From the NCBI RefSeq assembly GCF_002563955.1, contig NZ_PDJE01000001.1:248001-312000 (forward strand): DNA of 64,000 nucleotides. Reading direction: 5' to 3'. Below the pieces are notes generated by a model. That model was not told the origin of the DNA, did no database searches, and worked only from the letters and a program-made list of their open reading frames with translations. Origin of the DNA: Paramicrobacterium agarici. GTDB taxonomy: Bacteria > Actinomycetota > Actinomycetes > Actinomycetales > Microbacteriaceae. Shown here piece after piece: positions 1-64,000 of this stretch. The position numbers were made by a program, and so were the translations under genes. Numbering within the stretch: position 1 is the stretch's first letter; every line of letters begins with the position of its first letter.

Positions 1-116
1 AGCTTCGGCAAGCGCTCAATCAGAAACTGCCGAAGGGTCTTCCAACGGCGCTCGCGCGGCGTGCGCACCCACGCGGCATCGAGCCCGTGGCGTTGCGGAA
101 GAGGTGAGATCGGCAC
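1..116 (-). CDS. RluA-family pseudouridine synthase, N-terminal fragment
   Basis: Only the first ~38 codons lie in the window; the gene runs off the left edge. Reading from a GTG at 116, the peptide begins VPISPLPQRHGLDAAWVRTP and continues with WKTLRQFLIERLP. This resembles the N-terminus of actinobacterial RluA-type pseudouridine synthases, which isomerise uridine to pseudouridine in rRNA or tRNA. A GGGGAGGGG Shine-Dalgarno-like run lies about 12 nt upstream of the GTG. The assignment rests on resemblance of this short N-terminal stretch. The catalytic domain is outside the window, so the substrate RNA cannot be inferred. Confidence 0.55.
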   Translation of the reverse strand, partial: MPISPLPQRHGLDAAWVRTPRERRWKTLRQFLIERLPK

Positions 117-163
117 TCATCGAGGGTACCCCTCCCCATTGAAGCGCCCCGCTTGCCCCTGGA

Positions 164-169
164 TAGACT
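164..169 (+). promoter_or_regulatory. -10 box (TAGACT) placed for a leaderless start
   Basis: TAGACT ends 7 nt before the ATG at 177. Transcription would then begin at or next to the start codon. No convincing ribosome-binding site precedes the ATG. Confidence 0.5.
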
Positions 170-176
170 CCCCCTC

Positions 177-2078
177 ATGGGGAGAATCGCACGTGCGCTG
201 GTCGCAACCGGTGCGGCCGCCGCGGCAGCAGCGATGCTGACCGGGGCGGCCATGGCCGGGACCGTGCCGACGGACGAGAGACCGGGTGAGCCCACGTCGC
301 TCAACCACGCGACAGCAGCGGCGCAGCCCAACGGCACCTCGCCCGTCATGGCGCTCGGCGTCGCGCCCTCCGACGTCGACGATTTCGAGTTTCAGAGCCT
401 CGACGTCGACTACACCATCGGCCGCGACGACGACGGCCACAGCACGCTCACGGTCGTCGAAGAGTTCACGGCGGTCTTTCCCGACGCCGATCAGAACCGT
501 GGAATGCGCCGCAGCATCCCGACGACCTATAACGGTCAGCCGCTCAACCCCGAACTTGTCTCGATCACCGACGGCGCGGGCACAGAGCGCCCCGCTGAGA
601 CCGACACCGAAGACGGCACGTTTCAGATGACATCTCGTGCTGACGACTACCTGCACGGGGCACAGACCTTCGTGTTCACGTACACGCTGCAGCACGTCAC
701 GTGGTACTTCGACGAGACCGACACCGAGGAGTTCTACTGGGACGTCAACGGCGTCGACTGGAAGCAGCCCTTCGGCTCCATCGAGGCCACGCTGCACGTC
801 CCAGCATCCCTCGCGCCCGCGATGACGGCCGAGCAGTCCTGCTACCGGGGAGCGCAGGGCAGCGCCGACACCTGCTCGATTCTGGCGACTCCGGATGCTG
901 ATGGCGGCGCGACCGTGACGGCGCACGCCCGCGACATTTCCCCGTACGAGACGACCTCCATCGCTGTCGGATTCGAGCCCGGCACTTTCGTTCCGTACGA
1001 CACGTCGTTCTTCGCCCGCGCGTGGGGATGGTTGCAGCTCGTCGTGACGCTCGCCGCCGTCGCCCTGCTGATCCCGGCCATCCACACGCGAGTCACGAAG
1101 CTCCGCGATGCGCCCGGACGCCCCAGGGTGATCGCCGAATACGAGCCGCCGCACGACATCGACGCACTGCAGGCCGCCGTCTTTCTCGGCAAGCAGGCGA
1201 AGGCGATCCCGGCCGAGGTTCTCGAGCAGGCCGTCTCCGGCAGCATCCGCATTATCGAGGGTCGCAGAAAGTTCTTCGGCGGCGCGCGGCTGCAGGCCCA
1301 GCTCGTCGACACGTCGAAGGCAGACGGTGATGGGCGCATGCTTCTATACGGTCTCTTCGGCCCCGCACCGGCAGCCGGTGCCGTCTTCGAGTTCGGCCGC
1401 CAAGACAAACGGCTGTCGAAGACGGCGCAGAACATCATCACGTGGGCGAAGACGCAGCTTAAGTCACGCGAGTACCGCCGAACGGTGTCATCGACGGCCG
1501 TCAAAGCTCCCGCAATTCTCGGCTTTCTCGCCGCGGGCGCGTCTGTCGCACTGGGCGTCATCTCTCTCAACCTGCAGGTCGAGCCGCTGCTGCCCGTTCT
1601 GCTCATGATCGGCGCCGTCGTCGCGTGGGTCGCATGCATCATGCTCGTCGCGCACCGACCGCTGACGCCCAGGGGAGCCGAGCTTCGCGACCACCTCGCA
1701 GGTCTCAAGGAGTTCATCGAGTGGGCAGAGGCCGACAGAATCAGGATGCTGCAATCGCCGACCGGCGCGGAACGCAGGACCATCGATGCGAGCGACCCGC
1801 GCCAAGTGCTGCACCTCTATGAGAAGCTCCTGCCGTTTGCAGTGATCTTCGGGCAAGAGAAGCAATGGGCCGACCAGCTCGTCGTGCTCTACCAGTACAC
1901 CGGTGCCGCCGCGCCGACGTGGTACTACGGTGCGGCCGGTTTCAACGCGTCGGCGTTCTCTAGCGGCATATCGACGTTGTCGACAACTGCTGTCAGCGCC
2001 TCGTCGAGTACCGGTGGCTCGAGCGGCGGAGGTTCGGCCGGCGGCGGAGGCGGAGGTGGCGGAGGCGGAGGCGTCTGA
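177..2078 (+). CDS. DUF2207 domain-containing membrane protein
   Basis: A 633-residue protein matching the DUF2207 family in layout; its biochemical function is unknown. It starts with an Ala-rich signal peptide or membrane anchor (MGRIARALVATG...AAMAG). A long extracellular domain of about 250 residues follows. There is one membrane helix near residues 285-305, a cytoplasmic stretch, and a helical pair near 440-490. The C-terminus is a low-complexity Ser/Gly tail ending in a long glycine run, typical of this family. I chose the ATG at 177 because it opens directly onto the signal peptide and sits 7 nt after TAGACT. A TTG at 153 is possible but would prepend residues unlike a signal sequence. 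The gene is monocistronic. Confidence 0.8.
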   Translation: MGRIARALVATGAAAAAAAMLTGAAMAGTVPTDERPGEPTSLNHATAAAQPNGTSPVMALGVAPSDVDDFEFQSLDVDYTIGRDDDGHSTLTVVEEFTAVFPDADQNRGMRRSIPTTYNGQPLNPELVSITDGAGTERPAETDTEDGTFQMTSRADDYLHGAQTFVFTYTLQHVTWYFDETDTEEFYWDVNGVDWKQPFGSIEATLHVPASLAPAMTAEQSCYRGAQGSADTCSILATPDADGGATVTAHARDISPYETTSIAVGFEPGTFVPYDTSFFARAWGWLQLVVTLAAVALLIPAIHTRVTKLRDAPGRPRVIAEYEPPHDIDALQAAVFLGKQAKAIPAEVLEQAVSGSIRIIEGRRKFFGGARLQAQLVDTSKADGDGRMLLYGLFGPAPAAGAVFEFGRQDKRLSKTAQNIITWAKTQLKSREYRRTVSSTAVKAPAILGFLAAGASVALGVISLNLQVEPLLPVLLMIGAVVAWVACIMLVAHRPLTPRGAELRDHLAGLKEFIEWAEADRIRMLQSPTGAERRTIDASDPRQVLHLYEKLLPFAVIFGQEKQWADQLVVLYQYTGAAAPTWYYGAAGFNASAFSSGISTLSTTAVSASSSTGGSSGGGSAGGGGGGGGGGGV

Positions 2079-2109
2079 CGCTTTTCCCCCCGGCGCGCCG
2101 ATGGTATCG

Positions 2110-2124
2110 TGTGGTCTGACCACA
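2110..2124. promoter_or_regulatory. LldR/FadR-type operator, perfect 15-bp palindrome
   Basis: TGTGGTCTGACCACA has 7-bp arms around a central T. Its core TGGTCTGACCA fits TNGTNNNACNA, the motif known for FadR-subfamily GntR proteins including LldR of Corynebacterium. It lies 20 nt before the GTG of the GntR gene. A possible -10 box, TATCGT (2105-2110), abuts it, so binding should block transcription of the regulator and the downstream dehydrogenase. Confidence 0.8.
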
Positions 2125-2143: not shown

Positions 2144-2857
2144 GTGACTGACGAGAAGCGTGCATGGGAGACCGTGCTCTCGCGCGTGGAGTCCGATCTG
2201 CTCGACGGCACGCTCGTTCCCGGCGACCGCCTGCCCGGGGAACGCGCACTCGCCGCCGAACTCGGCGTCGGCCGATCGAGCGTTCGCGAAGCACTTCGCG
2301 TGCTCGAAGTGCTCGGCCTCATCCGCACGGCGACGGGTTCCGGGCCGGGTGCGGGTGCGATCATCGTCGCGACTCCGCGCGGCGGCATGTCGGCGCTTCT
2401 GCGGCTTCAGGTCGCTGCGAAGGGCTTCGCCATGCACGACATCGTCGCGACGCGCCTCGTCCTCGAAGCGTCGGTCGCTGAGGACCTCGCCCGACAGCAT
2501 CCGGATCTCACCGACGCCGAGGCAATGCTCACCGCCATGAACGGTGACGATCTGACTCCCGCCGAGTTTCTCGCACTCGACGCGCAGTTCCACTTGTCGC
2601 TCGCCGAGGCGACGGGCAACGCCGTGATCGCGGCGACCATGGCCGGATTGCGCGGCGCGATCGAGTCGTACGTGCAGGCCGGGAGCGCGAGCATTCCCGA
2701 CTGGCTCGCGACCGCTGCACGGCTGCGTGCAGAACACGCGCGCATCGTCACCGCGATACGAGCGGGAGACGCGGATGCTGCCCGCGCGCACGTGCGCGAC
2801 CACATCACGGGCTACTACGCCCAGATCAACAACGGAAAGGATGCGCAGAATGGTTAA
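2144..2857 (+). CDS. lldR: FadR-family GntR regulator, probable lactate-responsive repressor LldR
   Basis: A 237-residue GntR protein. It has an N-terminal winged helix ([20 protein letters not shown], then [16 protein letters not shown]) and an all-helical FCD effector domain ([19 protein letters not shown]; the terminal HVRDHI carries metal-ligand-type histidines). I chose the GTG at 2144 because GGAGG lies 6 nt upstream. The operator at 2110-2124 indicates autoregulation. Its stop overlaps the start of the alpha-hydroxy-acid dehydrogenase by 8 nt, so the two are translationally coupled. By analogy with Corynebacterium LldR it should release DNA when L-lactate is present; that is inferred from the partner gene and the operator. 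Confidence 0.8.
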
Positions 2858-4115
2858 GCGCCAGCTCCCGAACCCGGCAGAGATCTTTGAGCTCATGAAG
2901 TTCAAGACACCGGAGCTCAACCTCAAGAAGCGCCGGCTCGATGCCGCTCTGACGATCGGAGACCTGCGCGAGATCGCCAAGCGCCGCACGCCGGCCGCGG
3001 CCTTCGACTACACCGACGGCGCCGCCGAGGCCGAGCTGTCGATCGCCAGGGCGCGTCAGGCATTCAAAGACATCGAGTTTCACCCCGACGTTCTGCACCC
3101 CGCGACGAGCGTCGACACCTCGACGACCATACTCGGCGGCCCGAGTGCGCTGCCGTTCGGCATCGCCCCGACAGGGTTCACGCGACTCATGCAGACCGAG
3201 GGCGAAGAGGCCGGCGCGGGAGCCGCGGGCGAGGCAGGCATTCCGTTCACGCTTTCGACGCTCGGCACGATGTCGATCGAAGACGTCAAGGCGGTCAATC
3301 CGCACGGCCGCAACTGGTTTCAGCTGTACGTCATGCGCGACCGCGACGTCTCCTATGAGCTGACGCGCCGGGCGGCAGCATCCGGATTCGACACCCTCTT
3401 CTTCACGGTCGACACGCCTGTTGCCGGCGCACGCCTGCGCGACACCCGCAACGGATTCTCGATTCCGCCGCAGCTCACGCTCAAGACGATTCTCGACGCC
3501 ATTCCGCGGCCGTGGTGGTGGTTCGACTTTCTCACGACGCCCAAGCTCGAGTTCGCCTCGCTGTCGTCGACCGGCGGAACGGTCGGCGAACTGCTTGACG
3601 CGGCGATGGACCCGACCATCAGCTACGAGGACCTCGATGTGATTCGCGACATGTGGCCGGGCAAGATCGTGGTGAAGGGCGTTCAGACCGTCGCGGATGC
3701 TGCGAAGCTCGTCGATCTCGGTGTCGACGGCATCGTGCTCTCGAACCACGGCGGGCGCCAGCTCGACCGAGCGCCGATTCCGTTCCACCTGCTGCCGCAC
3801 GTGCGTCGCGAGCTGGGCAGAGATGCGACGATCATCACGGACACCGGAATCATGAATGGAGCCGACATCGTCGCGTCTGTCGCCCTCGGCGCGGACTTCA
3901 CGCTCATCGGGCGCGCCTACCTCTACGGGCTCATGGCCGGCGGGCGTGAGGGGGTCGACCGCACCATCTCGATTCTGCGCACGGAACTGACGCGCACCAT
4001 GAAGCTTCTCGGGGTCTCGTCGCTCGCCGAGCTCGAGCCCAGGCACGTCACGCAGCTCGCGCGTCTCACACCCGTTGCACAGGAGGCCGACGAGGTCGCT
4101 GCGGGCTTCGCCTGA
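2850..4115 (+). CDS. lldD: FMN-dependent alpha-hydroxy acid dehydrogenase, probable L-lactate dehydrogenase (quinone)
   Basis: A 421-residue member of the FMN-dependent alpha-hydroxy acid oxidase/dehydrogenase family, a TIM barrel that oxidises L-lactate to pyruvate. The hallmark SNHGGRQLD with the catalytic His and flavin-binding Arg lies near residue 300, and the phosphate-binding [19 protein letters not shown] follows. The N-terminus [13 protein letters not shown] and the block [16 protein letters not shown] are also typical. The ATG at 2850 overlaps the end of lldR and has AAAGG about 9 nt upstream. With lldR it forms a two-gene lactate-utilisation unit, likely passing electrons to menaquinone. 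A lactate monooxygenase or another 2-hydroxyacid substrate cannot be excluded from sequence alone. Confidence 0.8.
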
Positions 4116-4198
4116 TCCACAGTGCGCGTCGAACACGGCGAGGGTGATCGATGCACAGCTTTTATACGAGGCACTGCCCTGCGCAGCATCCGCCCCTG

Positions 4199-5454: not shown

Positions 5455-6399
5455 ATGAAACTGACAACGACCGCCCTCACGGCACTCGCACCCGCCGTCT
5501 GGGGAACGACATACATCGTGACGACTGAGCTGCTCCCCGCCGATCATCCGCTGTTCGCATCGCTCGTGCGGGCACTGCCCGCAGACCTCCTCGCCATTGC
5601 AATTGCACGGCGCCTCCCCCGCGGATCGTGGTGGCTGAAATCGGCGATCCTCGGCATCCTGAACATCGGCGCCTTCTTTCCGCTTCTGTTTCTTGCCGCG
5701 TACCGCCTCCCCGGCGGTGTCGCGGCCACCCTCGGCGCATTCCAGCCACTCATCGTCGCGCTGCTCGTCGTGCCCATCCTCAGAGAACGCCTCTCGACGT
5801 GGCGCATGCTGTGGGGGCTGGTGGGCGTCGTCGGTGTCGCCCTCGTCGTGCTTCGCTCGTCGGCGTCGCTCGATGTCGTCGGAATCGTCGCCGGACTCCT
5901 GGGCCCCGTCTCCATGGGACTCGGCGTGGTGCTCACCAAGAAGTGGGGCCGCCCAGAAGGCGTCTCCGGCGTCGCCCTCGCGGGGTGGCAACTGACCGCG
6001 GGCGGGCTCGTTCTTCTTCCGATTGCGCTCACTGTCGAGGGCGTGCCCGCAGTGATCGACGCGGATGCCGCGCTCGGCTACGCCTGGCTCGGCATCGTCG
6101 GTGGCCTCCTCGCGTACACCCTCTGGTTCAGCGGCATCCGCTCACTACCCGTCACGGCTGTCGCCGTGTTGGCACTGCTCTCTCCGCTTGTCGCTGCATT
6201 GCTCGGAGCCCTCGTGCTTGGTGAGACATTCACACTCGCGCAGCTGGCGGGCTTCGCCCTCGCGCTTGCCGCGATCGTCGCCTCGCAGCTCACTCCGCCG
6301 AAACGACGCCGCGCACATCCACATACCGACCGCAGACTCACCTACCAGCCAAGCACCTCGACAACGTCGCTCGCTGCCACCGAAAGGACGCCCCAATGA
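5455..6399 (+). CDS. EamA-family (DMT) exporter
   Basis: A 314-residue inner-membrane protein of the drug/metabolite transporter superfamily with about ten hydrophobic helices arranged as two EamA repeats. The first repeat starts ALAPAVWGTTYIVTTELLPA. The second contains LGYAWLGIVGGLLAYTLWFS and ends near ALLGALVLGETFTLAQLAG, the usual closing motif. Members export metabolites or drugs by proton antiport. The last codons overlap the next ORF by 4 nt (ATGA), so the two are co-translated. It diverges from the MarR gene, so it is probably induced by the exported compound or a relative of it. Confidence 0.85.
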   Translation: MKLTTTALTALAPAVWGTTYIVTTELLPADHPLFASLVRALPADLLAIAIARRLPRGSWWLKSAILGILNIGAFFPLLFLAAYRLPGGVAATLGAFQPLIVALLVVPILRERLSTWRMLWGLVGVVGVALVVLRSSASLDVVGIVAGLLGPVSMGLGVVLTKKWGRPEGVSGVALAGWQLTAGGLVLLPIALTVEGVPAVIDADAALGYAWLGIVGGLLAYTLWFSGIRSLPVTAVAVLALLSPLVAALLGALVLGETFTLAQLAGFALALAAIVASQLTPPKRRRAHPHTDRRLTYQPSTSTTSLAATERTPQ

Positions 6400-7025
6400 G
6401 AATCGCCGTGATCGGAGCAACCGGAATGATCGGCGCACGCATCGCAGCAGAGGCAGCACAGCGCGGTCACGCCGTTACCGCCGTGTCACGATCTAAGCGA
6501 GCGGATGCTGCCAGCAACATGTCGCCGATCGCGGCCGACGCCACGGATGCCGCCGCCATGCGCGCTCTCGCTCACGGCAATGACGCGCTCGTGCTTGCCA
6601 CGCGCCCCGCTCCCGGAGCAGAGCACCTGGTGCGCGACCCGGCGCGCATCGTGCTCGCCGCGGCTCAGGATGCGCGGCGTCGCGTCTGCGTGATCGGCGG
6701 CTCCGCGCCCCTGAAGACCCCGGATGGCACCGGCCTCGTCATCGATGACGCTCGCTTCGTTCCTTCCGAGTGGCAGACGTTCGCCCGCGCCAGCGTCGAG
6801 CAGCACGACGAATGCACGCGCTCCCGCGCCGACTGGGTATACGTGAGCCCTCCCGCGGTCATCGAACCGGGGCGGCGCACCGGCTCCTACGTTCTCGGCA
6901 CCGACACGCTGCTCGTCGACGACGCCGGCGTCTCATGGATCAGCGCTGAGGACTTCGCCGTCATGGTCGTCGACCAGCTCGAGGCGCCACCCTCCAGCAT
7001 CAGCCACCTCACAGCACGCGCGTGA
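6396..7025 (+). CDS. NAD(P)-binding atypical SDR-family protein (YwnB-like)
   Basis: A 209-residue Rossmann-fold protein of the NAD(P)H-binding atypical SDR group. It starts MRIAVIGATGMIGARIA, where GATGMIG is the dinucleotide-binding turn. Later motifs are the VSPPAVIEPG strand and the ISAEDFAVMVVDQLE terminus, seen in YwnB/YhfK-type proteins. The classical Tyr-Lys catalytic pair is not evident. It is translationally coupled to the EamA exporter and therefore probably under MarR control. A quinone- or flavin-reductase-like protective role is possible but is a guess. Confidence 0.75.
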   Translation: MRIAVIGATGMIGARIAAEAAQRGHAVTAVSRSKRADAASNMSPIAADATDAAAMRALAHGNDALVLATRPAPGAEHLVRDPARIVLAAAQDARRRVCVIGGSAPLKTPDGTGLVIDDARFVPSEWQTFARASVEQHDECTRSRADWVYVSPPAVIEPGRRTGSYVLGTDTLLVDDAGVSWISAEDFAVMVVDQLEAPPSSISHLTARA

Positions 7026-7041
7026 GCGATGTCCGAGCCGG

Positions 7042-7958: not shown

Positions 7959-7976
7959 GGAGGCCTCAGCTGACCG

Positions 7977-9007: not shown

Positions 9008-9009
9008 CT

Positions 9010-55735: not shown

Positions 55736-55741
55736 TGGGCC

Positions 55742-57016
55742 GTGACCACCCCCGACACGCCGCGGCTTGTCGTCGACACCACCCCCGTCGGCGATGTGTC
55801 GCTTCTCATCCCCCACACCTCACAGAGCGAACCGCTCGTCTGGCTGCGCAAGGGCGCAGGAATGATCGGAATCGGCGAGGCCGTGCGCCTGGAGTTCTCC
55901 GGGCCAGACCGCATGACCGAGGCCGCCGCAGCATGGCGTCGCCTTGCGGCATCCGCTCATGTCTCCGATCGCGTCGGTGTCCCCGGAACCGGGCTCATCG
56001 CGTTCGGCGCGTTCGCGTTCTCGGCGCTGTCGACGACGACGAGCGTGCTTGTCGTGCCGCGCACCGTCATCGGGCGCCGCGGCGGACGCCACTGGGTGAC
56101 GCACGTGCGCCTCGAGGGCGAGGAGCTCAACACGGGACACGGGGGAATGACGGATGCTGCCGAGGCAGCGATCGCCGACGCGATGCCCGTCGGCGAGGCG
56201 TTCGCCGTAGAGTTTCTCGACGGCCAGGAGTCTCCCGAGTCGTACAAGCTGCATGTCGCGGAGGGCGTTCGTCGCATTCGCGCGGGCGAGCTCGACAAGG
56301 TCGTTCTGGCGCGGGACCTCGTCGGAACGGTTCCCGAGGGCGCCGATCTGCGCCGTTTCGTCACAGACCTCGCGCAGGGGTACCCCGACTGCTGGACGTA
56401 TGCGGTCGACGGCCTGATCGGCTCAAGCCCCGAGACGCTCGTGAGCGTGACCGAGGGCGCGGTGACGGCGCGCGTTCTGGCGGGCACCACGGGGCGCGGA
56501 GACGGCCCGGATGCTGACGAGCAGGCCGCCGTCGCCCTCGCGACATCGCAGAAAGACAACGACGAGCACGAGTTCGCCGTGCAGAGCGTCGTGCGCTCGC
56601 TCGAATCGCACACGTCGCACCTGGCGGCGAGCGAAGTGCCGTTCACCCTCAAGCTGCCGAACCTCTGGCATCTCGCGACGGACGTCGACGGTGTTCTCAG
56701 CGACGGCGCATCGTCGCTCGACCTCGTCTCGGCACTGCACCCGACGGCGGCGGTCGCCGGGGCGCCGACCCCAGACGCTGTCGCCCTCATCGACGACCTC
56801 GAGCCGTTCGACCGCGGGCGCTATGCCGGACCGGTGGGCTGGGTAGGCGCTGACGGCGACGGCGAGTGGGCGATCGCGCTGCGGTGCGCGCAAGTGGACG
56901 GCGACGCACTCACGGCGTATGCGGGGTGCGGCGTCGTTGCCGATTCCGTTCCCGAGAACGAGCTCACCGAGACGCGCATCAAGTTTCGGCCCGTTGTCGA
57001 CTCGCTCGAGGGCTGA
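55742..57016 (+). CDS. menF: Isochorismate synthase MenF
   Basis: A 424-residue chorismate-utilising enzyme (ADCS/isochorismate synthase family). The C-terminal catalytic region has ELDKVVLARDLVGTV, IGSSPETLVSVTEGAVTARV and LAGTTGRGDGPDADE, then LHPTAAVAGAPTPDAVALID and the final TETRIKFRPVVDSLEG. It converts chorismate to isochorismate, the first committed step to menaquinone. It converges on menD, with a terminator between them. A siderophore-type isochorismate synthase is unlikely given the neighbouring men genes. Confidence 0.85.
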   Translation: MTTPDTPRLVVDTTPVGDVSLLIPHTSQSEPLVWLRKGAGMIGIGEAVRLEFSGPDRMTEAAAAWRRLAASAHVSDRVGVPGTGLIAFGAFAFSALSTTTSVLVVPRTVIGRRGGRHWVTHVRLEGEELNTGHGGMTDAAEAAIADAMPVGEAFAVEFLDGQESPESYKLHVAEGVRRIRAGELDKVVLARDLVGTVPEGADLRRFVTDLAQGYPDCWTYAVDGLIGSSPETLVSVTEGAVTARVLAGTTGRGDGPDADEQAAVALATSQKDNDEHEFAVQSVVRSLESHTSHLAASEVPFTLKLPNLWHLATDVDGVLSDGASSLDLVSALHPTAAVAGAPTPDAVALIDDLEPFDRGRYAGPVGWVGADGDGEWAIALRCAQVDGDALTAYAGCGVVADSVPENELTETRIKFRPVVDSLEG

Positions 57017-57038
57017 GCCACGTCCTGCTCCTGACAGT

Positions 57039-57080
57039 TGCGGACGTTTTGTGCTGCCGCGCCGATACAGAACGTCCGCA
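57039..57080. terminator. Bidirectional hairpin between menF and menD
   Basis: TGCGGACGTTTTGT (57039-57052) pairs with ACAGAACGTCCGCA (57067-57080) at 13 of 14 positions around a 14-nt loop, between the convergent stops. Confidence 0.6.
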
Positions 57081-57141
57081 GACCACAGAACAACGCTCAG
57101 TGCCGTCGAAGGCAGCGACGTACCGCGTGCAGACGCACTGC

Positions 57142-58992
57142 TCAGCGCTCGAGCGGAACCTCGATGATCACCGGGGCATCGCGCGGCGTCGTGAGCGCCT
57201 GATCGAGGTCTGCGCGGGTCTGTGCACGCACGTGGTCCCACCCGTACGCCTGCGCGAGCGCGGCTACGTCGACGCCGTGCGGCGTGTACTGCACGCGATC
57301 GAACACGTCGCGCTCGGCGGACTTCGCAACCTCGAGATCATCGAAGATCGTTCCGCCGCCGTCGTTGCCAACGATGACCTGCAGTCGCGGCCAGGCCTCG
57401 CCGTGACCACCGAGCAGTGAGCCTGCATCGTGCAGGAGCGCGAGGTCGCCGACAAGCACGCGTGTGACGCCCGGCATCCCGTCTTTCTGCTGCACCGACG
57501 CGATGCCGTGCGCCGTGGCGATCGTGCCGTCGATGCCGGCGAGACCGCGGTTCGCGTGCACGGGGATCTTCTTTCCCGCGACGAAGGCGTCGGCGACGCG
57601 AATCAGGCGGGATGCCGCGAGCACGAGACGATCGTGCGGCCACGTCACACGCCACAGCTCTTCGGCCAGCATCCGCCTGTCGATCGGAGCGCGCACGGCA
57701 GCGAATTCTGCGCGGGCGAAGCGGGCGCGTGCTGCGGGATCGTTCGAGTGGCCGTCGTCCAGTGACGGTGCCGTGTCGCGGTCGGCCGCGGCCATGTGTT
57801 CGCGCGATGCGACCACCCACGCTCCAAGCCAGTCCCGGTCTGCAGGGCCTTCGGCGACGGATGCTGTCGCGACGACGCGAGCGCGCCGCGCAGGGTTGTA
57901 CGCCTCAATGCCCGTCGGCGCGACGACCGTCACGTCGACGTCCGGCCGCTGCAGCAGCGCCGGCACCTCGCGGCTGAGCGTCGGGTGGCCGAACACGACG
58001 GCACGCTCGATGCGCCCGCCGAGGCGAACGTCGCGCAGCAGCTCGCGGTACGGCACAACGAGATTGCGACCGAAACGAGCCCCGCTTGTGACCTCTGCGA
58101 TGAGCGGCCAGGAGCCGGCGTGCGCGAGTTCTTCTGCGGCGGGCCCCGCGCCGTGTCCGGCAATCACGACGGTTCGCGGGCCCCGGTCGAGTGTCACGCT
58201 CGGCCGCTCGAACCTCGCGCTGGTGGAGGGGCGGGGCGCTTCTGCTTCCGGCGTTCGTGTGCCACTTTGTGTGGCATCGTCGGTGCTCACGCCGCCAAAA
58301 ACGGCACGCGAATCGGCGCCCGTTGCATCAGCCAGCTCCTCCGCCACGTCCGTCTCCGAGAGCGACGACGACAGCGGTTCACGAAAAGCGACGTTCAGGT
58401 GCACGGGTCCTGACCCGGCGACGCCTCGGCCGTTGGCGGCGCGCATCGCCTCACGTGCCAGCGCCGCGGCCCGCTCGATCTCGTGCGGCGTCCCGACCGG
58501 CGCGGCGACATCGCGCTCGAACCGCACGGCGCCGCCGAAAATGCCCGGCTGCACGGTGGTCTGGTTGCTGCGAATCCCGCGCAGCTCCTCCGGGCGATCG
58601 GCCGTGACCAGCAGCAGCGGAACACCCGAATGATGCGCCTCGAGAACCGCGGGATGCAGGTGCGCCACGGCAGACCCGCTCGTGGTCACGACCGCGGCAG
58701 CGTGCCCCGACTCGACGCCGAGGCCGAGCGCGAAGAACGCGGCCGAGCGCTCATCGATGCGCACGTGCACGCGCAGGACTTCGGCCTGCTCCAGTGCCGC
58801 CGCCGCGAGCGCGAGCGCTTGCGACCGTGACCCGGGGCACACAACAACGTCGGTCAGACCGTGCTGCGCGAGTGCGTTCAGCAGCGCGAGTGCGTACGTC
58901 GTCGCCGGCGCCTGGTTCGAGGCGAGGATGCTGTCGCCAGCCGCGTTCGGTTCAGAGCGGCCCTCGTCTGAGACGGACGGCTCGTCAGGCAT
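57142..58992 (-). CDS. menD: 2-succinyl-5-enolpyruvyl-6-hydroxy-3-cyclohexene-1-carboxylate synthase MenD
   Basis: A 616-residue ThDP-dependent enzyme of the MenD family, joining isochorismate with 2-oxoglutarate. The start region LAQHGLTDVVVCPGSRSQAL carries the MenD signature CPGSRS. LRVHVRIDERSAAFFALGLG and AAVVTTSGSAVAHLHPAVLE follow. The C-terminal ThDP-binding region has LVGDLALLHDAGSLLGG and VIVGNDGGGTIFDDLE. The ATG at 58992 overlaps the PLDc_N gene stop by 8 nt, so it is coupled to that gene. An insert near the middle (about residues 300-340) is low complexity. Confidence 0.88.
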   Translation of the reverse strand: MPDEPSVSDEGRSEPNAAGDSILASNQAPATTYALALLNALAQHGLTDVVVCPGSRSQALALAAAALEQAEVLRVHVRIDERSAAFFALGLGVESGHAAAVVTTSGSAVAHLHPAVLEAHHSGVPLLLVTADRPEELRGIRSNQTTVQPGIFGGAVRFERDVAAPVGTPHEIERAAALAREAMRAANGRGVAGSGPVHLNVAFREPLSSSLSETDVAEELADATGADSRAVFGGVSTDDATQSGTRTPEAEAPRPSTSARFERPSVTLDRGPRTVVIAGHGAGPAAEELAHAGSWPLIAEVTSGARFGRNLVVPYRELLRDVRLGGRIERAVVFGHPTLSREVPALLQRPDVDVTVVAPTGIEAYNPARRARVVATASVAEGPADRDWLGAWVVASREHMAAADRDTAPSLDDGHSNDPAARARFARAEFAAVRAPIDRRMLAEELWRVTWPHDRLVLAASRLIRVADAFVAGKKIPVHANRGLAGIDGTIATAHGIASVQQKDGMPGVTRVLVGDLALLHDAGSLLGGHGEAWPRLQVIVGNDGGGTIFDDLEVAKSAERDVFDRVQYTPHGVDVAALAQAYGWDHVRAQTRADLDQALTTPRDAPVIIEVPLER

Positions 58993-59470
58993 CCGAGCTG
59001 TTCGTACCGGTGCCGTGGCCGTGGTCGGAGGGGTGCTCGTCGTCACACGGGTCGGTTGCCGTTCCATCAGAGGAACGCTCTGCCTCGCGGCGCTTGCGCT
59101 GCTCTTCTGCGGCCGCAGCATCCGCTCGTCTCTTCTCGTCACGCGGACGAATGATCTCTTCTTCAGCATCGAGTGCTGCGAGCTCTTCTTCGAGCTGGCG
59201 AATGCGGTCGTCTTGCTCAGAGTCGCCGCGCAGTCCGCCGATGAACGACGGGTCGTCGTCGGGCGCGACATCGCGAGCGAGCTCGGAGCCGCCTCGGCCG
59301 ATGAAGTACCAGAGCGCCAGGCCGATCACCGGAAGAACGAGGATCAGCACGATCCAGATCGGCTTCGACAGGCCCCTGACGCGTCGGTTGTCGATGATGG
59401 CGCAGTCCACGACCGTGTAGATCGTGATGGCCACGATCACCGGGATCAAGATGAAGAGTAGACGTGCCAT
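58985..59470 (-). CDS. PLD nuclease N-terminal (PLDc_N) domain membrane protein
   Basis: A 161-residue protein with two N-terminal membrane helices in the PLDc_N pattern (LLFILIPVIVAITIYTVVDC then LSKPIWIVLILVLPVIGLAL). A charged coiled-coil-like tail rich in Glu, Asp and Arg follows. It lacks any phospholipase catalytic domain. TACCAT ends 6 nt before the ATG. Its 3' end overlaps menD by 8 nt, so the two are translated together. Its role is unknown; conserved linkage to menaquinone genes would suggest a membrane-organising role. Confidence 0.75.
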   Translation of the reverse strand: MARLLFILIPVIVAITIYTVVDCAIIDNRRVRGLSKPIWIVLILVLPVIGLALWYFIGRGGSELARDVAPDDDPSFIGGLRGDSEQDDRIRQLEEELAALDAEEEIIRPRDEKRRADAAAAEEQRKRREAERSSDGTATDPCDDEHPSDHGHGTGTNSSDA

Positions 59471-59545
59471 GCACTTATGGTAGCTTCCCCAGCGGTTAAT
59501 GTTCTGGGCGTCTTGGCACCCAGCGCTCAGCCAGCCGCTTCGCCC

Positions 59546-59551
59546 TAGAAT
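59546..59551 (+). promoter_or_regulatory. -10 box (TAGAAT) of the DUF4229 gene
   Basis: TAGAAT ends 6 nt before the GTG at 59558. Confidence 0.5.
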
Positions 59552-59557
59552 TCTCGT

Positions 59558-59893
59558 GTGAAGCGCATTCCCCCGGCCGTGACCTACACGATTCTTCGCC
59601 TGCTGACGTTCTTCGTTCCGCTGGCGATTCTGCTTCTGCTCGGGTTCAACGAGTGGTTCTCGGCGATCGTGGCCGCGCTCATCGGGTTCGCTGTCTCGCT
59701 CATTTTCTTGCGCCGGTCGCGAGATCAGGTGTCTGAGGCCATCCACAGCAAGCGCACGGGGGCGGATGCTGCCAAGCCGCACGAGACGCCGACGGACGAA
59801 GAGGCCGAAGACGACGTTGTCGACCACGCCGCGCCCGAGCCCGGTGCCACCGACGGCAAACGTTCTCGGCGCGACGACTCCGCAACGGCATAG
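59558..59893 (+). CDS. DUF4229 small membrane protein
   Basis: A 111-residue protein with two helices (LRLLTFFVPLAILLLLGFNE and WFSAIVAALIGFAVSLIFLR), then a basic segment and an acidic tail, as in DUF4229. Family members often lie near menaquinone genes in actinobacteria, as here, but no activity is known. It is the only plus-strand gene between menF and menC in this cluster. GTG at 59558 is favoured by the TAGAAT box. Confidence 0.75.
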   Translation: MKRIPPAVTYTILRLLTFFVPLAILLLLGFNEWFSAIVAALIGFAVSLIFLRRSRDQVSEAIHSKRTGADAAKPHETPTDEEAEDDVVDHAAPEPGATDGKRSRRDDSATA

Positions 59894-59933
59894 CCCGTGA
59901 GCAGCTACTCGACTGACGCCGTTTCTCGCGCTG

Positions 59934-60929
59934 CTAGAACGAGTAGCCGACGAAGAACGCGATGCCGTACAGCAGCTGCGTGATCCCGACGAGCTTGAGT
60001 GCGAGCACGAGCTCCTTTGGCGTGCGCGCTGTGACGACGATGAGGCACGCTGGCAGCGCGGCGAGCAGCGCGAACGCGGCGTACCAGATACCGGTGTAGA
60101 ACAACGCCACGAGCGCCGCGATGGCGAAGGGCACGAGCATGAGCACGACGAAGAGAATGCGTGTGGCGAGGTTGCCGATCAGCACCGAGAGCGTGTGCTT
60201 GCGCGAGAGCTTGTCTGACTCCCGGTCGCGCAGGTTGTTGACCAGGATCGCCGACATCGAGATGAGACCGACGCCGACCGCGCCGTACCAGGCCTCCTGG
60301 TTGAGCTGCCCCACCTGCACCCACATGGTGCCGAGGGTCGCGACGAGCCCGAAGAAGATGAACACGACGATCTCGCCGAGCGCGTAATAGCCGTAGGGGC
60401 GCTTGCCGCCCGTGTAGAACCATGCCGCAAGAATGCACGCCGCACCGACGGCGATGAGCCACCACTGCTGCGTCGCGATCGTGATGAGCACACCTGCGAC
60501 GGCGGCGAGACCGAAGAACACGAGAGCGACGATGAGAACGCTGCGCGGACTCGCCTTGCCCGAGCCGACGAGCCTGCCCGGGCCGACACGGCTCTTGTCG
60601 GTTCCACGGATGCCATCGGAATAGTCGTTCGCGAAGTTGACGCCGATCTGCAGCGCAACGGCAACGGCGAGGCAGAGCAGAGCGCGCACCCAGTGAAATT
60701 CGTCGGGAGCGCCCGCAATGCGCGCAGCGCCCGTGCCGACGAGAACCGGAGCGATCGACATGGGAAGCGTCGGAATGCGAGCCGCGCGAATCCAGTCACC
60801 GGCGGTCGCCGGCTTGATCTGCTGCAGCGGGCGCGCCGCCGGGTTTCCGCTCTTGCCGCCACCCTTGCGCGCGACGTGAACCGCCGCGCCCTGCTTCTTC
60901 TTCGACGAGCTCTTGCTCTGTGCTGCCAC
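59934..60929 (-). CDS. menA: 1,4-dihydroxy-2-naphthoate polyprenyltransferase MenA
   Basis: A 331-residue UbiA-family prenyltransferase with about nine helices. The first Asp-rich motif is NFANDYSDGIRGTD, and the second is NNLRDRESD. A basic, disordered N-terminus (KSSSKKKQGAAVHVARKGGG) precedes WIRAARIPTLPMSIAPVLVG. It attaches the polyprenyl chain to 1,4-dihydroxy-2-naphthoate. I chose the GTG at 60929 because AGGAGG lies 6 nt upstream. It sits next to menE. Confidence 0.88.
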   Translation of the reverse strand: MAAQSKSSSKKKQGAAVHVARKGGGKSGNPAARPLQQIKPATAGDWIRAARIPTLPMSIAPVLVGTGAARIAGAPDEFHWVRALLCLAVAVALQIGVNFANDYSDGIRGTDKSRVGPGRLVGSGKASPRSVLIVALVFFGLAAVAGVLITIATQQWWLIAVGAACILAAWFYTGGKRPYGYYALGEIVVFIFFGLVATLGTMWVQVGQLNQEAWYGAVGVGLISMSAILVNNLRDRESDKLSRKHTLSVLIGNLATRILFVVLMLVPFAIAALVALFYTGIWYAAFALLAALPACLIVVTARTPKELVLALKLVGITQLLYGIAFFVGYSF

Positions 60930-60968
60930 GAACGACCTCCTGCTCCGCGGCAACTTTACTAAAGAACG

Positions 60969-62141
60969 CTATGTCGGCGTGCGCTCGGCGATCACGCGCG
61001 CGACGGCCTGGCGATCGGGCTTGCCCGACAGGAGCCTCGGAATCGCGGCGACGGTGACGATGCGATCGGGACGCGCGGGCTTGCCGAGCGCTGTCGCGAC
61101 AGCATCCTGAACCACATCGAGGCGCGACCCGGCCACGTCTGTCACGACGACAGGCACCTGCCCCCAGCGGTCATCGTCGGCACCCACGACGACGGCATCT
61201 TCGAGGCCCGCCACAGTGTGCACAATGCGCTCGACCCGGTCAAGGTTGACGTTGATGCCGCCCGAAACGATGACGTTGTCGGCGCGCCCGAGCACCGTGA
61301 GCACGCCATCGTCAATGCTCGCGAGATCGCCCGTTCGATACCAATGGCGGCCCTCGCGCTCGACGAATGCGCCCTCCATGCGGCGGTGATCGATCGTGCC
61401 GTCGTCGGCGAGGTATCCGTCGGCGAGCATCGGACCGGTGAGCTCGACTTGCCCGTCGACGATGTTCATCTCAACGCCGGGCAGCGGGCGGCCGTTGTAA
61501 ACGCAGCCGCCGGAGGTCTCACTCGAGCCGTACGTGCGAAAGATGGGGAGCCCGAGCAGCTGCGTTCGATCGCGCACGGGTTCGGGCAGAGCCTGCCCAC
61601 CGATGAGGATGCCGTCGAAGCGACGCAGCGCAGTCACGCCGGAACGCGTCTCGAGCAGCCGCATGAGCTGCGCCGGAACGAGCGACGTGAAGCGCAGATC
61701 GCCCGTGAGCTGCTTGCTCGCCTCGATGAACGCCGCCGTGTCGAAGCGGCCGGGCGGCAGCACGACGGGCGTCGTCTCGGCGGCGATCGAGCGCACGAGA
61801 ACCTGCAGCCCCGCAACGTAGTGCGCGGGCAGAGCGATCAGCCACTGCCCTGGTCCGCCCATGACGGACTCCGATGCCGAGGCCGACGCCAGCAGCGCGT
61901 CACAGCTGAGAACGACGTTCTTAGGTTCGCCCGTCGATCCAGACGTGCGGATCACGACGGCCGTCGCGTGCGGAACCTCGTGCAGCTCGGTGCCGTGGTG
62001 GGCGGCGAGCGGGGCATCTTTGTGCGGCGACTCGGCGGCCAGCGGCAGCAGCGCGGGGCCGGAACGGTCGAGCGCACCGCGCAGTGCCGTCATGACCTCG
62101 ATGGGGTCGGATGCCGGAACGGCGACGATACTGCGTGTCAT
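60969..62141 (-). CDS. menE: o-Succinylbenzoate-CoA ligase MenE
   Basis: A 390-residue ANL-family ligase, shorter than typical acyl-CoA ligases, as MenE usually is. Motifs: VVIRTSGSTGEPKNVVLSCD (P-loop), FRTYGSSETSGGCVYNG (adenine-binding) and WYRTGDLASIDDGVLTVLGR with IVSGGINVNLDRVERI. It activates o-succinylbenzoate for MenB. TAGACT ends 6 nt before the ATG. It converges towards menA on the same strand (40 nt gap). Confidence 0.85.
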   Translation of the reverse strand: MTRSIVAVPASDPIEVMTALRGALDRSGPALLPLAAESPHKDAPLAAHHGTELHEVPHATAVVIRTSGSTGEPKNVVLSCDALLASASASESVMGGPGQWLIALPAHYVAGLQVLVRSIAAETTPVVLPPGRFDTAAFIEASKQLTGDLRFTSLVPAQLMRLLETRSGVTALRRFDGILIGGQALPEPVRDRTQLLGLPIFRTYGSSETSGGCVYNGRPLPGVEMNIVDGQVELTGPMLADGYLADDGTIDHRRMEGAFVEREGRHWYRTGDLASIDDGVLTVLGRADNVIVSGGINVNLDRVERIVHTVAGLEDAVVVGADDDRWGQVPVVVTDVAGSRLDVVQDAVATALGKPARPDRIVTVAAIPRLLSGKPDRQAVARVIAERTPT

Positions 62142-62234
62142 GACCAGAGTCTACGTCCCGGCCCAACCCCGGCGCACGGGGCTTGCGCACACTCGTGTGT
62201 ACTCCTTGTACTCATTGTGTGCCCGCGGCGCGAC

Positions 62235-63137
62235 TCAGTAGTGCCAGGGGTACGGCGACCAGTCGGGCTCGCGCTTCTCGAGGAACGAATCGCGTCCTTC
62301 GACGGCCTCGTCTGTGCCGTAGGCGAGACGCGTCGCCTCCCCCGCGAAGACCTGCTGGCCCACAAGACCGTCGTCGACGGCGTTGAACGCGAACTTCAGC
62401 ATCCTGATCGCCGTCGGCGACTTGGTGAGAATGCGCCGCGCCCACCGCAGGGCTTCGGTCTCGAGCTCCGCGTGCGGAACGACGGCGTTGACGGCGCCCA
62501 TCTCGTAGGCGCGCTGCCCCGAATATTCGTCGGCGAGAAAGAACACCTCGCGGGCGAACTTCTGCCCGATCTGACGGGCGAAGTACGCGGATCCGTAGCC
62601 GGCGTCAAATGAGCCGACATCGGCATCCGTCTGCTTGAACTTCGCCTTATCGCTCGCCAGCGTGAGATCGCACACGACGTGCAGCGAGTGGCCGCCGCCG
62701 GCTGCCCACCCGGAAACGACGGCGATGACGACCTTCGGCATGAAGCGAATGAGCCGCTGCACCTCGAGAATGTGCAAGCGACCCGAGCGCGCCGGATCGA
62801 TGCCCTGCGCCGTGTCTTCGGCAGAGTACTTGTAGCCGTCGCGGCCGCGGATGCGCTGGTCGCCGCCGGAGCAGAATGCCCAGCCGCCGTCTTTCGCGCT
62901 CGGCCCGTTGCCCGTGAGCAGCACGACGCCGACGGTCGACGCCGTGCGTGCGTGGTCGAGCGCGCGGTACAGCTCGTCGACGGTGTGCGGGCGAAAGGCG
63001 TTGCGCACCTCGGGACGGTCGAACGCGATGCGGGCGACGCGGCCGTCATGCGTGTGGTGATATGTGATGTCGGTCAGCTGTTCAAAGCCCTCAACCGCCT
63101 GCCACTGGGATTCGTCGAAGATCTCAGACACCGTCAT
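62235..63137 (-). CDS. menB: 1,4-Dihydroxy-2-naphthoyl-CoA synthase MenB
   Basis: A 300-residue crotonase. Family motifs: DGRVARIAFDRPEVRNAFRP, GDQRIRGRDGYKY, the oxyanion/active-site AVVSGWAAGGGHSLHVVCDL and FKQTDADVGSFDAGYGSAYF, which is MenB-specific. It closes the second ring to make DHNA-CoA. TACGAT ends 6 nt before the ATG. It diverges from menC. Confidence 0.92.
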   Translation of the reverse strand: MTVSEIFDESQWQAVEGFEQLTDITYHHTHDGRVARIAFDRPEVRNAFRPHTVDELYRALDHARTASTVGVVLLTGNGPSAKDGGWAFCSGGDQRIRGRDGYKYSAEDTAQGIDPARSGRLHILEVQRLIRFMPKVVIAVVSGWAAGGGHSLHVVCDLTLASDKAKFKQTDADVGSFDAGYGSAYFARQIGQKFAREVFFLADEYSGQRAYEMGAVNAVVPHAELETEALRWARRILTKSPTAIRMLKFAFNAVDDGLVGQQVFAGEATRLAYGTDEAVEGRDSFLEKREPDWSPYPWHY

Positions 63138-63196
63138 GCCTCAATCGTAGTTGTGTGCCGCTGCCCTCCCTGGCCCCAGGCGGGCACGCGTGCACA

Positions 63197-63290
63197 GTTT
63201 CGGAATCCTCGCGGGCGTCGGTGCCACAGGATGCCGCCGACCAGGGGTTTTGCGGCGGTTCGCGTGCACCGCCGCACAGATTTCCGAAAC
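63197..63290. repeat. Near-inverted repeat in the menB/menC gap
   Basis: GTTTCGGAATC (63197-63207) and GATTTCCGAAAC (63279-63290) are inverted copies with one extra base. Both lie within the 185-bp divergent gap and follow a CACA. They may bind a regulator, but nothing confirms this. Confidence 0.3.
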
Positions 63291-63310
63291 AAGCGCACGG
63301 CCTGCCGGTG

Positions 63311-63316
63311 CAGAAT
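63311..63316 (+). promoter_or_regulatory. -10 box (CAGAAT) of menC, leaderless spacing
   Basis: CAGAAT ends 6 nt before the ATG at 63323. Confidence 0.45.
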
Positions 63317-63322
63317 GGGCGC

Positions 63323-64000
63323 ATGCATGCGTTGCCGCCGCTCGACGAGCTTCTTGCCTCAGCCCACGTCGTCTCGCTGCCGCTGACAACCAGGTTCCGC
63401 GGCATCACGCAGCGCGAGGCCGTGATCTTCATCGGGCCTGAGGGCGCAACCGAGTTCTCCCCGTTCACCGAGTACGAGGATGCCGAGGCGGCGACGTGGC
63501 TGCGGGCGGGCATCGCGTTCGGCTGGGGCGAGCTTCCGCCGCTGTGCCGCGACAGCATCCGCGTGAACGCGACGATGCCCGCCGTCACGCCGGACCGCGT
63601 GGAGAACGTGCTTGCACGCTACGACGGATGCCGCACTGTGAAGGTGAAGGTCGCCGAGCCGGGGCAGACACTCGCAGACGACGTCGCGCGCGTTGCGGAA
63701 GTGCGGCGTCTGGTGGGACCCGAGGGCCGCGTGCGCCTCGACGCGAACGGCGGTTGGAACGTCGACGAGGCCGAGCACGCGATTCACGAGCTTGCCGAGT
63801 TCGATCTCGAGTACGTCGAGCAGCCGTGCGCCACTGTCGACGAACTGGCTCAGGTGCGCAGGCGCGTGAAGTACATGGGCATTCCCATCGCGGCAGACGA
63901 GAGCGTGCGCAAGGCCGAAGATCCGCTCGCCGTCGCCCGGGCGCGCGCCGCCGACCTGCTCATCGTGAAGGCGCAGCCGCTCGGCGGTATCGGCCGCGCG
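63323..64000 (+). CDS. menC: o-Succinylbenzoate synthase MenC, partial at the right edge
   Basis: The first 226 residues of an enolase-superfamily protein; the gene runs off the window. It begins MHALPPLDELLASAHVVSLP and has TRFRGITQREAVIFIGPEGA, the short-form actinobacterial MenC N-terminus. The second strand KVKVAEPGQTLADD contains a catalytic Lys, and VRLDANGGWNVDEAE plus YVEQPCATVDEL supply metal ligands; IPIAADESVRKAEDP and LIVKAQPLGGIGRA follow. It makes o-succinylbenzoate from the MenD/MenH product. Divergence from menB completes the cluster. Confidence 0.88.
   Translation, partial: MHALPPLDELLASAHVVSLPLTTRFRGITQREAVIFIGPEGATEFSPFTEYEDAEAATWLRAGIAFGWGELPPLCRDSIRVNATMPAVTPDRVENVLARYDGCRTVKVKVAEPGQTLADDVARVAEVRRLVGPEGRVRLDANGGWNVDEAEHAIHELAEFDLEYVEQPCATVDELAQVRRRVKYMGIPIAADESVRKAEDPLAVARARAADLLIVKAQPLGGIGRA

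Follow-up and report, generated by a model that had tools for sequence, protein, structure and literature searches.

The question raised by this locus is why a single octamer, GGATGCTG, which is non-palindromic in that it differs from its own reverse complement CAGCATCC, recurs so often in a genome of the Microbacteriaceae. Across the window, which is the whole 64,000-nt stretch of DNA analyzed, 83 copies were counted, 36 on the plus strand and 47 on the minus strand; a preliminary description had arrived at about 82 (36 and 46). It had estimated that base composition would give only 2–3 copies; 100 dinucleotide shuffles of the window gave a mean of 3.16, and the largest count in any of them was 8. 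The excess extends to the whole genome (3.23 Mb), in which 2789 copies were found (1416 forward and 1373 reverse) vs. 99 (46 forward plus 53 reverse) for the control, the same word read backwards. The over-representation of GGATGCTG/CAGCATCC is thereby confirmed as real.

Statistics on 8-mer frequency (Markov models), reading frame, consensus, and word pairs were calculated on 464 kb of the same genome, where GGATGCTG was the top deviant 8-mer under both order-4 and order-5 models (404 copies observed vs. 51.4 expected, z 49, and 158.9 expected, z 19, respectively). The preliminary description had named a sixth-order model as the check to make, and under that model an excess was present but small (404 vs. 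333.7 expected, z 3.8); in the window alone, GGATGCTG fell outside the 12 most deviant 8-mers. The order-6 test is nearly blind for this word because the 7-mers within it mostly come from the word itself, and the informative tests are low-order Markov models, synonymous-codon shuffling, and conservation between orthologues.

The consensus is nearly all-or-none. The 404 perfect copies in the 464 kb amount to 19 times expectation, and 20 of the 24 single-mismatch words lie between 0.34 and 1.34 times expectation; the four enriched ones are GGATGCCG (4.8 times; 183 observed vs. 38 expected), GGATGCTT (2.0), GGATGCTC (1.7), and GGATGCGG (1.5). Taken as raw counts, single-mismatch words total 669 and outnumber the perfect copies, so that a strong consensus is not apparent in that form of the comparison; this is because the octamer is GC-rich and 183 of the mismatched words represent a second dialect, GGATGCCG. 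The flanks are weakly constrained, with C before the word and Y-C-G after it.

Exact copies of GGATGCTG on the plus strand of the window start at 893, 1744, 2773, 3695, 4702, 6503, 7615, 7822, 13986, 14757, 16407, 17511, 20624, 20781, 21583, 24455, 26350, 29119, 31221, 32052, 34018, 35008, 36666, 38622, 38665, 43263, 45010, 45746, 48191, 50374, 54031, 56152, 56509, 57859, 58926, and 59764. Exact minus-strand copies, for which the plus strand reads CAGCATCC, start at 512, 802, 1241, 2495, 3376, 4184, 4950, 7366, 7443, 9111, 9349, 11309, 11737, 12416, 13274, 13754, 14411, 14969, 17415, 19114, 22636, 26364, 29476, 30508, 31937, 34716, 35415, 35499, 37016, 37239, 38281, 38730, 40108, 42967, 43774, 44402, 46219, 48359, 50543, 51220, 54093, 54741, 57667, 59116, 61100, 62397, and 63553. 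The second form, GGATGCCG, is matched exactly 37 times on both strands (5652..63633), with plus-strand starts at 6063, 6545, 12377, 15297, 17799, 19042, 22258, 22627, 33777, 37198, 39844, 43202, 43953, 54960, 57610, 61607, 62109, 63229, 63478, and 63626 and minus-strand starts at 5652, 6132, 7497, 7776, 14192, 16378, 17838, 25752, 27926, 33951, 39440, 45904, 47207, 48065, 55947, 57472, and 62621.

Copies of the word lie both inside and between genes, and the positions and frames quoted in the preliminary description matched the gene calls. The plus-strand gene 234–2078 contains copies at 512..519 on the minus strand (C-AGC-ATC-C, Ser-Ile), at 893..900 on the plus strand (G-GAT-GCT-G, Asp-Ala), and at 1744..1751 on the plus strand (GG-ATG-CTG, Met-Leu). 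Minus-strand copies fall at 2495..2502 in the plus-strand gene 2144–2857 (CAG-CAT-CC, Gln-His-Pro) and at 3376..3383 in the plus-strand gene 2850–4115 (CA-GCA-TCC, Ala-Ser). The copies at 4184..4191 on the minus strand (gap 4116–4210), 26350, and 26364, which had been called non-coding, are all intergenic. The argument that the variety of frames speaks against a codon or peptide effect also holds: in the 464 kb, 346 coding copies were observed vs. 36.2 in synonymous shuffles, and all six frame and orientation classes were seen, so that a codon-pair or peptide cause was rejected. The commonest frame is G-GAT-GCT-G (Asp-Ala), with 147 of the 346 coding copies, and sense frame 0 (Gly-Cys) is almost empty (2 of 346). 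Sense copies number 218 and antisense copies 128. The 56 non-coding copies occupy the ~16% of the DNA called non-coding, at a density similar to that of coding copies.

Neighboring copies were also examined for arrangement. Copies less than 200 bp apart are slightly scarce (56 observed vs. 69.1 expected, sd 6.7), and neither a two-word tandem pattern nor a bias toward gene ends, as in Pasteurellaceae, was seen. Among pairs separated by up to 45 bp in the 464 kb, 14 are head-to-head (8.4 expected) vs. 2 that point the same way (8.5 expected); the head-to-head count alone is only modestly above random placement, a value of 14 being reached in 90 of 2000 trials, and 5 of the 14 are wholly intergenic. 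One such pair in the window, at 26350 (plus) and 26364 (minus), lies within 26340..26381 in the gap between the convergent genes 24727–26325 (plus) and 26386–26919 (minus), and forms a hairpin with a 19-bp stem and a 4-base loop (−38 kcal/mol, z −9.0). This inverted pair, previously described as a terminator, is terminator-like by position and lacks a T run, and is best regarded as a putative terminator.

The density of the word tracks GC content strongly (Spearman 0.66). In 4-kb bins it is 0.05/kb at <58% GC vs. 1.42/kb at >67%, where GC serves as a mere proxy for origin and the reversed-word control (2 copies in one set of 10 bins, then 4 and 9 in two sets of 53) is too sparse to correct the GC effect finely.

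The preliminary description had also advised a comparison with related genera, and this revealed a shared core. GGATGC is enriched in most of the Microbacteriaceae genera sampled, with genus-specific last letters, and no such enrichment was found in the other families sampled. In pooled loci, the favored letters after GGATGC differ by genus (TG, CG, CA, CC/CT, or GC), dialects also differ within one genus, and GGATGCCG is the most frequent form in the majority of the related genera pooled. These pools drew on 73 of 80 loci, one locus of 4–24 kb per contig, with L004, L011, L020, L050, L056, L060, and L080 left out; those for Leifsonia, Mycetocola, Labedella, Glaciibacter, Okibacterium, and Rathayibacter comprise 47–95 kb each, the Okibacterium pool containing a strain named Leifsonia and the Rathayibacter pool a further Microbacteriaceae strain. 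Two word forms are carried by each of G002 and G004. Of 36 family genomes, 19 have CGGATGCC at least 5 times as often as the reversed-word control, which is a rough control, since the corresponding ratios span 1.0 to 2.4 in 23 genomes of other families; firm statements of enrichment rest on Markov tests of sequence and not on these ratios. At orthologous sites, with nine codons used in the test, codons within words were unchanged in 78 of 86 cases in G003 (28.4 expected), 68 of 86 in G004 (30.8), 57 of 72 in G002 (26.4), and 37 of 70 in G001 (18.1), and GGATGCCG stood in place of GGATGCTG at 6, 18, 12, and 17 sites, respectively.

Taken as a whole, these patterns favor, with a probability of about 0.55, the reading that GGATGCTG is an actinobacterial DNA-uptake sequence that would have been spread by biased uptake and recombination via ComEA/ComEC and probably a Tad pilus. 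The interpretation in the preliminary description is partly supported: its arguments for a resemblance to uptake sequences hold, and its view that uptake, recombination, methylation, and nucleoid binding were equally possible gives way to a leaning toward an uptake-type word. In the proposed mechanism, the cell surface would prefer word-bearing free DNA, bound by ComEA or a Tad-type pilin; a single strand would enter via ComEC; and homologous recombination would replace word-less alleles with word-bearing ones. Over generations, such a drive would fill tolerant sites, coding or not, on both strands, and a shift in receptor preference would shift the word and yield genus-specific dialects around the GGATGC core. 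Low-GC DNA with few words would, on the same scheme, be recently acquired. The wider proposal, put at even odds, is that Actinomycetota independently evolved an uptake-sequence system based on a Tad pilus together with ComEA/ComEC. Its dialects would change fast in the Microbacteriaceae, limit gene exchange between genera, and have shaped coding sequence genome-wide, with a different word, YATCGGTGTTG, in Rhodoluna lacicola.

The main rival is a conserved orphan methyltransferase acting on a HIP1-like word, in which the enzyme would mark GGATGC/GCATCC and methylation-dependent repair would create and keep the sites; we consider this unlikely. A beta-class methyltransferase gene (PF01555) does lie at G000:C1:213712-214638, and its close relatives (E below 1e-100) occur in 33 of 36 family genomes, including all 19 of the genomes richest in the word (CGGATGCC at least 5 times control), vs. 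3 of 23 genomes from other families. However, relatives are also encoded by 14 of the 17 family genomes that are poorer in the word, by G040 from another family, in which the core is not in excess (88 vs. 99.8 in 100 kb), and by R. lacicola, whose enzyme is 69% identical yet whose word is different. Methylation as the sole cause is therefore weakened. From the catalytic motif onward, nineteen aligned PF01555 sequences share 68 to 100% identity with the genome's own and contain long blocks without any change, even though the words of their genomes differ; a shift of target specificity between genomes may still be compatible with this alignment. C5 methylases (PF00145) are missing from the word-rich G003, G004, and G028, and PF02384 types, sought in 36 of 59 genomes, from the word-rich G002 and G004. 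Methyltransferases were accordingly rejected as predictors of the word, PF01555 being present in most word-poor genomes too and the other two families being patchy. HIP1 and the alternate HIPs of cyanobacteria, in the portion of the source available (PMC4390886), resemble GGATGCTG in that an octamer is very frequent, an orphan methyltransferase is conserved, and some lineages carry alternate words. HIPs are palindromes with methyltransferase sites inside them, whereas GGATGCTG is not palindromic and methyltransferase presence does not predict it.

A functionless mutational or codon-context bias would fit the small order-6 excess but is highly improbable given the synonymous shuffles, the retained codons in G003, the similar density of non-coding copies, and the predominance of head-to-head over same-way pairs. 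Chi and KOPS are over-represented, non-palindromic octamers that are oriented with replication, and the length and over-representation of GGATGCTG are within the range of known Chi sites. A polar recombination or translocation signal of this kind is nevertheless the least credible explanation, because strands are even in both GC-skew groups of the 464 kb (92 forward and 86 reverse copies in the eleven positive-skew stretches, 117 forward and 109 reverse in the remaining ten) and GGATGCTG thus shows no replication polarity; the mixed orientation that had been noted as unlike KOPS is borne out by the same counts. Direct selection, on both strands, of a site bound by a protein of chromosome structure or maintenance (nucleoid, segregation, or repair) is more plausible than either, though still doubtful. 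It agrees with the even orientation, the frequency of about one copy per kb, the orthologous conservation, and the slight shortage of copies less than 200 bp apart, but we know of no such protein with sites of this density and strictness. The near absence of the word from low-GC DNA and the dialects within a genus would need extra assumptions, and, by an argument from the available part of PMC1626085, a consensus this close to all-or-none does not resemble that of relaxed protein-binding sites.

The reading as a DNA-uptake sequence can be set against known cases. Uptake-word literature, as far as the excerpts of the sources extend, concerns Neisseriaceae and Pasteurellaceae (PMC3630211, PMC1626085, PMC1939737), and neither GGATGCTG nor an uptake sequence of Actinobacteria was described among the open-access literature matches listed, subscription papers being outside this scope; a term search likewise found the letters of GGATGCTG absent from the main text of the word-frequency papers searched. 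Like GGATGCTG, the DUS of Neisseriaceae, as partly accessible in PMC3630211, is a very frequent, short, non-palindromic word with dialects on a fixed core, inverted pairs that form terminator-like hairpins, and two dialects in one genome, as in Simonsiella. It differs in phylum and word, in its receptor, which is ComP in Neisseria with no ComP-like receptor known here, and in its machine, a type IVa pilus as opposed to a likely Tad/Flp pilus. The USS of Pasteurellaceae, in the available text of PMC1626085 and PMC2346458, is similarly a family-wide word with subclade types and one orientation commoner within reading frames, and an unusually strong consensus is a trait common to USS and DUS (PMC1626085). 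USS has AT-rich flanking segments, whereas GGATGCTG has weak flanks only and no gene-end bias. If correct, the proposal would add a third, independent uptake word, new for actinobacteria, that acts as a "self" label for recognizing DNA of the cell's own kind. It would also allow one to ask why uptake words evolve, how dialects arise inside a genus, and whether ComEA or a Tad pilus is capable of sequence recognition, and the right word in a construct might ease transformation of many hard-to-handle environmental actinobacteria.

ComE-type uptake genes, which the preliminary description had proposed looking for, are present in the genome itself as comEA-comEC-holA together with Tad-type genes. 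Among 59 genomes, ComEC was found in 57, ComEA in 56, and T2SSE ATPases in 59, and all are equally common in word-less genomes; the machinery is therefore no predictor of the word, and ComEC and ComEA were set aside as nearly universal and hence uninformative. A PilB-like ATPase was rejected as a predictor as well, with strong matches (E about 1e-135 or better) in the word-poor G007, G019, G034, and G035 and none in the word-rich G002, G003, G004, and G010. Candidate receptors are ComEA, a DUF4244 pilin-like protein (L183), and a Flp pilin (L190); a protein search with R. lacicola ComEA returned further ComEA-like proteins only.

Natural transformation has been shown in two Microbacteriaceae, among them R. 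lacicola, for which a protocol exists, according to the accessible part of PMC11577799. R. lacicola (G013) is without GGATGCTG and has its own word, YATCGGTGTTG (for example CATCGGTGTTG), which has no GGATGC core; in 1.06 of its 1.43 Mb, YATCGGTGT occurs 274 times vs. 11.9 expected, with 136 and 138 copies on the two strands. The published construct for this species, as given in that same part, had arms of roughly 500 bp and gave transformants (PMC11577799), yet ATCGGTG is absent from the 600 bp on either side of R. lacicola crtB. The arms thus apparently lacked the species' own word, which is therefore not strictly needed there. The R. lacicola phytoene-synthase gene is 894 bp long.

Exact copies of the 8-mer GGATGCTG were counted in the window, which contains 83 of them (36 plus, 47 minus) against the 3.2 expected from dinucleotide shuffles; the over-representation claimed in the preliminary description, at about 82 copies in 64 kb, is therefore real and large. 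It extends across the single-contig genome (G000; 3,233,920 bp, in which the window occupies 248001-312000), with 1416 forward and 1373 reverse copies, compared with 46 and 53 for the reversed-word control. Markov models were fitted to 464 kb of this genome, consisting of the window and 20 evenly spaced 20-kb stretches. GGATGCTG ranked first among 8-mers, its 404 copies comparing with 51.4 expected at order 4 (z 49) and 158.9 at order 5 (z 19). At order 6, the level at which the earlier description had proposed to judge the word, an excess was still present but small (404 versus 333.7, z 3.8), because the inner 7-mers consist mostly of the word itself.

The consensus is nearly all-or-none. Under an order-2 model, exact GGATGCTG occurs at 19 times expectation, whereas 20 of its 24 single-mismatch neighbours lie between 0.34 and 1.34 times expectation, with only GGATGCCG (4.8), GGATGCTT (2.0), GGATGCTC (1.7) and GGATGCGG (1.5) above that range. 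The likeness to a strong consensus is present after this background correction but absent in raw counts, where the neighbours sum to 669 versus 404 exact copies. The extended consensus is C-GGATGCTG-Y-C-G, with weak flanking letters.

By a simple gene caller that assigns 84% of the DNA to coding sequence, 346 copies were genic, 56 intergenic and 2 at edges. The copies fell into all six frame/orientation classes, with frames 1 and 2 predominating in both sense and antisense. Shuffling synonymous codons across 410 genes left 36.2 copies versus the real 346. Strand counts in 21 stretches split by GC skew were 92 forward and 86 reverse in the eleven positive-skew stretches (480001 to 2080001) and 117 and 109 in the remaining ten, and therefore give no sign of replication polarity. 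Pairs of words within 45 bp faced opposite ways in 14 cases and the same way in 2, where random placement predicts about 8.4 of each and reaches at least 14 opposite-facing pairs in 90 of 2000 trials. Twelve of these 14 were ordered GGATGCTG...CAGCATCC, the latter being the reverse-strand form, and 5 were wholly intergenic; the pair at 26350/26364 lies between convergent genes and forms a 19-bp stem (-38 kcal/mol, z -9.0). Word density rose with GC content (Spearman 0.66, 116 bins), from 0.05 words per kb in the five 4-kb bins below 58% GC to 1.42 in the 13 bins above 67%; copies of the reversed-word control are too few for recent arrival, which low GC may mark, to be told apart cleanly from composition. 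Three 20-kb loci of G000 (L086, L091 and L099, starting at C1:800001, 1600001 and 2880001) contain GC-poor stretches in which the word is scarce; if low GC is taken to mark recent arrival, these are candidate genomic islands.

The closest named locus to the window came from Microbacterium sp. MPKO10, whose PutA-like protein was 85% identical over its best-matching segment. Across G000 and four other genomes of its genus (G001-G004), GGATGCTG numbered 2789, 575, 1835, 3355 and 1680 copies and CGGATGCC 537, 1864, 1141, 835 and 1286, respectively, so that G000 and G003 use mainly the form ending in TG, G001 that ending in CG, and G002 and G004 both. To compare orthologous sites, the window was set against the corresponding 80-kb stretch of each genome, and reciprocal best hits paired 37 or 38 genes per comparison. 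The exact word was retained at 33 of 49 aligned word sites in G003, 18 of 52 in G004, 17 of 46 in G002 and 3 of 47 in G001, with 6, 18, 12 and 17 sites, respectively, reading GGATGCCG. G001 kept the exact 8-mer less often than other 8-mers (0.06 versus 0.17), as would follow from G001 having the other form as its dialect. For nine codons at conserved residues, with the same codons elsewhere as the expectation, unchanged in-word codons amounted to 78 of 86 in G003 (28.4 expected), 68 of 86 in G004 (30.8), 57 of 72 in G002 (26.4) and 37 of 70 in G001 (18.1). What is kept is the word, not the codon.

Within the family Microbacteriaceae, 19 of 36 genomes contained CGGATGCC at no less than five times its reversed control, compared with none of 23 genomes from other families of the order (highest 2.4). 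In small genus pools drawn from 73 of 80 named loci, the core GGATGC stood at 2.5 to 3.0 times expectation in Agromyces, Cryobacterium, Leifsonia, Mycetocola, Glaciibacter and the Okibacterium pair and at 1.7 in Rathayibacter, with no excess in Labedella (0.94) or in Arthrobacter-type genera of another family (0.92). The preferred last letters in these small pools were widely CG, with CA in Mycetocola, CT/CC in Agromyces and GC in Cryobacterium.

Aurantimicrobium photophilum belongs to the Microbacteriaceae. Rhodoluna lacicola has been affiliated with the same family (PMC4156110), and both are described as naturally transformable (PMC11577799). In 1.06 of the 1.43 Mb of R. lacicola, GGATGCTG was not enriched (28 versus 30.0 expected); YATCGGTGT occurred 274 times versus 11.9 expected (136 forward, 138 reverse) and ATCGGTGTTG 106 times versus 3.8, giving an iterated word, YATCGGTGTTG, that is equal on both strands and many-fold over expectation. 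R. lacicola, a proven transformable member, therefore has the same kind of word in different letters. Its 894-bp squalene/phytoene synthase gene (L251:11752-12645) matches the size published for crtB, and ATCGGTG is absent within 600 bp on either side; a construct with arms of roughly 500 bp is reported to have produced transformants (PMC11577799), which together speak against a strict word requirement in R. lacicola, where the word may play a stimulating role.

Competence genes are present in G000, where comEA, comEC and holA are consecutive (L125:8550-12486). A short locus (L183:8247-10545) adjoining topoisomerase I and thymidylate kinase genes encodes a T2SSE ATPase, a T2SSF-type protein and a DUF4244 small protein; a larger locus (within L190:4183-11637) has a second T2SSE ATPase gene along with one for a Flp pilin. 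We read these two Tad-type loci as putatively encoding Tad pili, and the small gene that comes next in L183, which lacks a Pfam match, as TadE-like. The actinobacterium Micrococcus luteus is reported to transform via Flp/Tad pili and to carry comEA and comEC (PMC6370729), and tad/flp and com genes are reported in R. lacicola and A. photophilum (PMC8591293). ComEC, ComEA and T2SSE were found in 57, 56 and 59 of 59 genomes, respectively, so that their near-universal presence gives no means of telling word-rich genomes from word-poor ones.

Molecular drive spreading an uptake-type word accounts for more of these facts than any rival reading, and we give it a probability of about 0.55. GGATGCTG shares most of the tested sequence-level features of the DUS/USS uptake words; the name DUS would also call for the functional ones (uptake effect, receptor, transformability of this genus), so that uptake-like is the proper label. 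A serious rival, here weakened, is the METHYLTRANSFERASE explanation, in which a PF01555 methyltransferase would stand behind the word by analogy with the HIP1 model (PMC4390886). An orphan-looking beta-class enzyme of this family, judged by gene calls around it in two genomes, lies at C1:213712-214638 of G000 (L163:6709-7638, minus strand), and its close relatives occur in 33 of the 36 Microbacteriaceae genomes, G030 having two copies, and in only 3 of the 23 from other families. However, they are also present in 14 of 17 word-poorer family genomes; G040, of another family, carries one with a core ratio of 0.88, and R. lacicola has one that is 69% identical yet uses another word. Beyond the catalytic motif, moreover, 19 aligned enzymes keep at least 68% identity to that of G000 and share long invariant blocks. 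Other methyltransferase families were patchy in distribution.

The PF01555 enzyme was retained even in the 0.93-Mb genome G018, in which overlapping 8-9-mers (CACGTGAA, ACGTGCGG and GCAGGGCC; L143-L145) reach about 10 to 50 times expectation and look like one longer interspersed repeat. Possibly other iterated words are ACGTCCTCG/CGAGGACGT (26 versus 5.7 expected) and ATCGCGTTC/GAACGCGAT (14 versus 1.9), found in four loci from Rathayibacter and another member of the Microbacteriaceae (L055, L076, L077 and L079). The palindrome CGACGTCG, perhaps HIP-like, was moderately enriched in the 13 loci of the Arthrobacter-type pool (L057, L059, L061, L073 and others; 100 versus 39.4). In L004, from Compostimonas suwonensis, ATGATCCG and CCACGCGG occur 37 and 42 times in 23.6 kb, probably as a local repeat.
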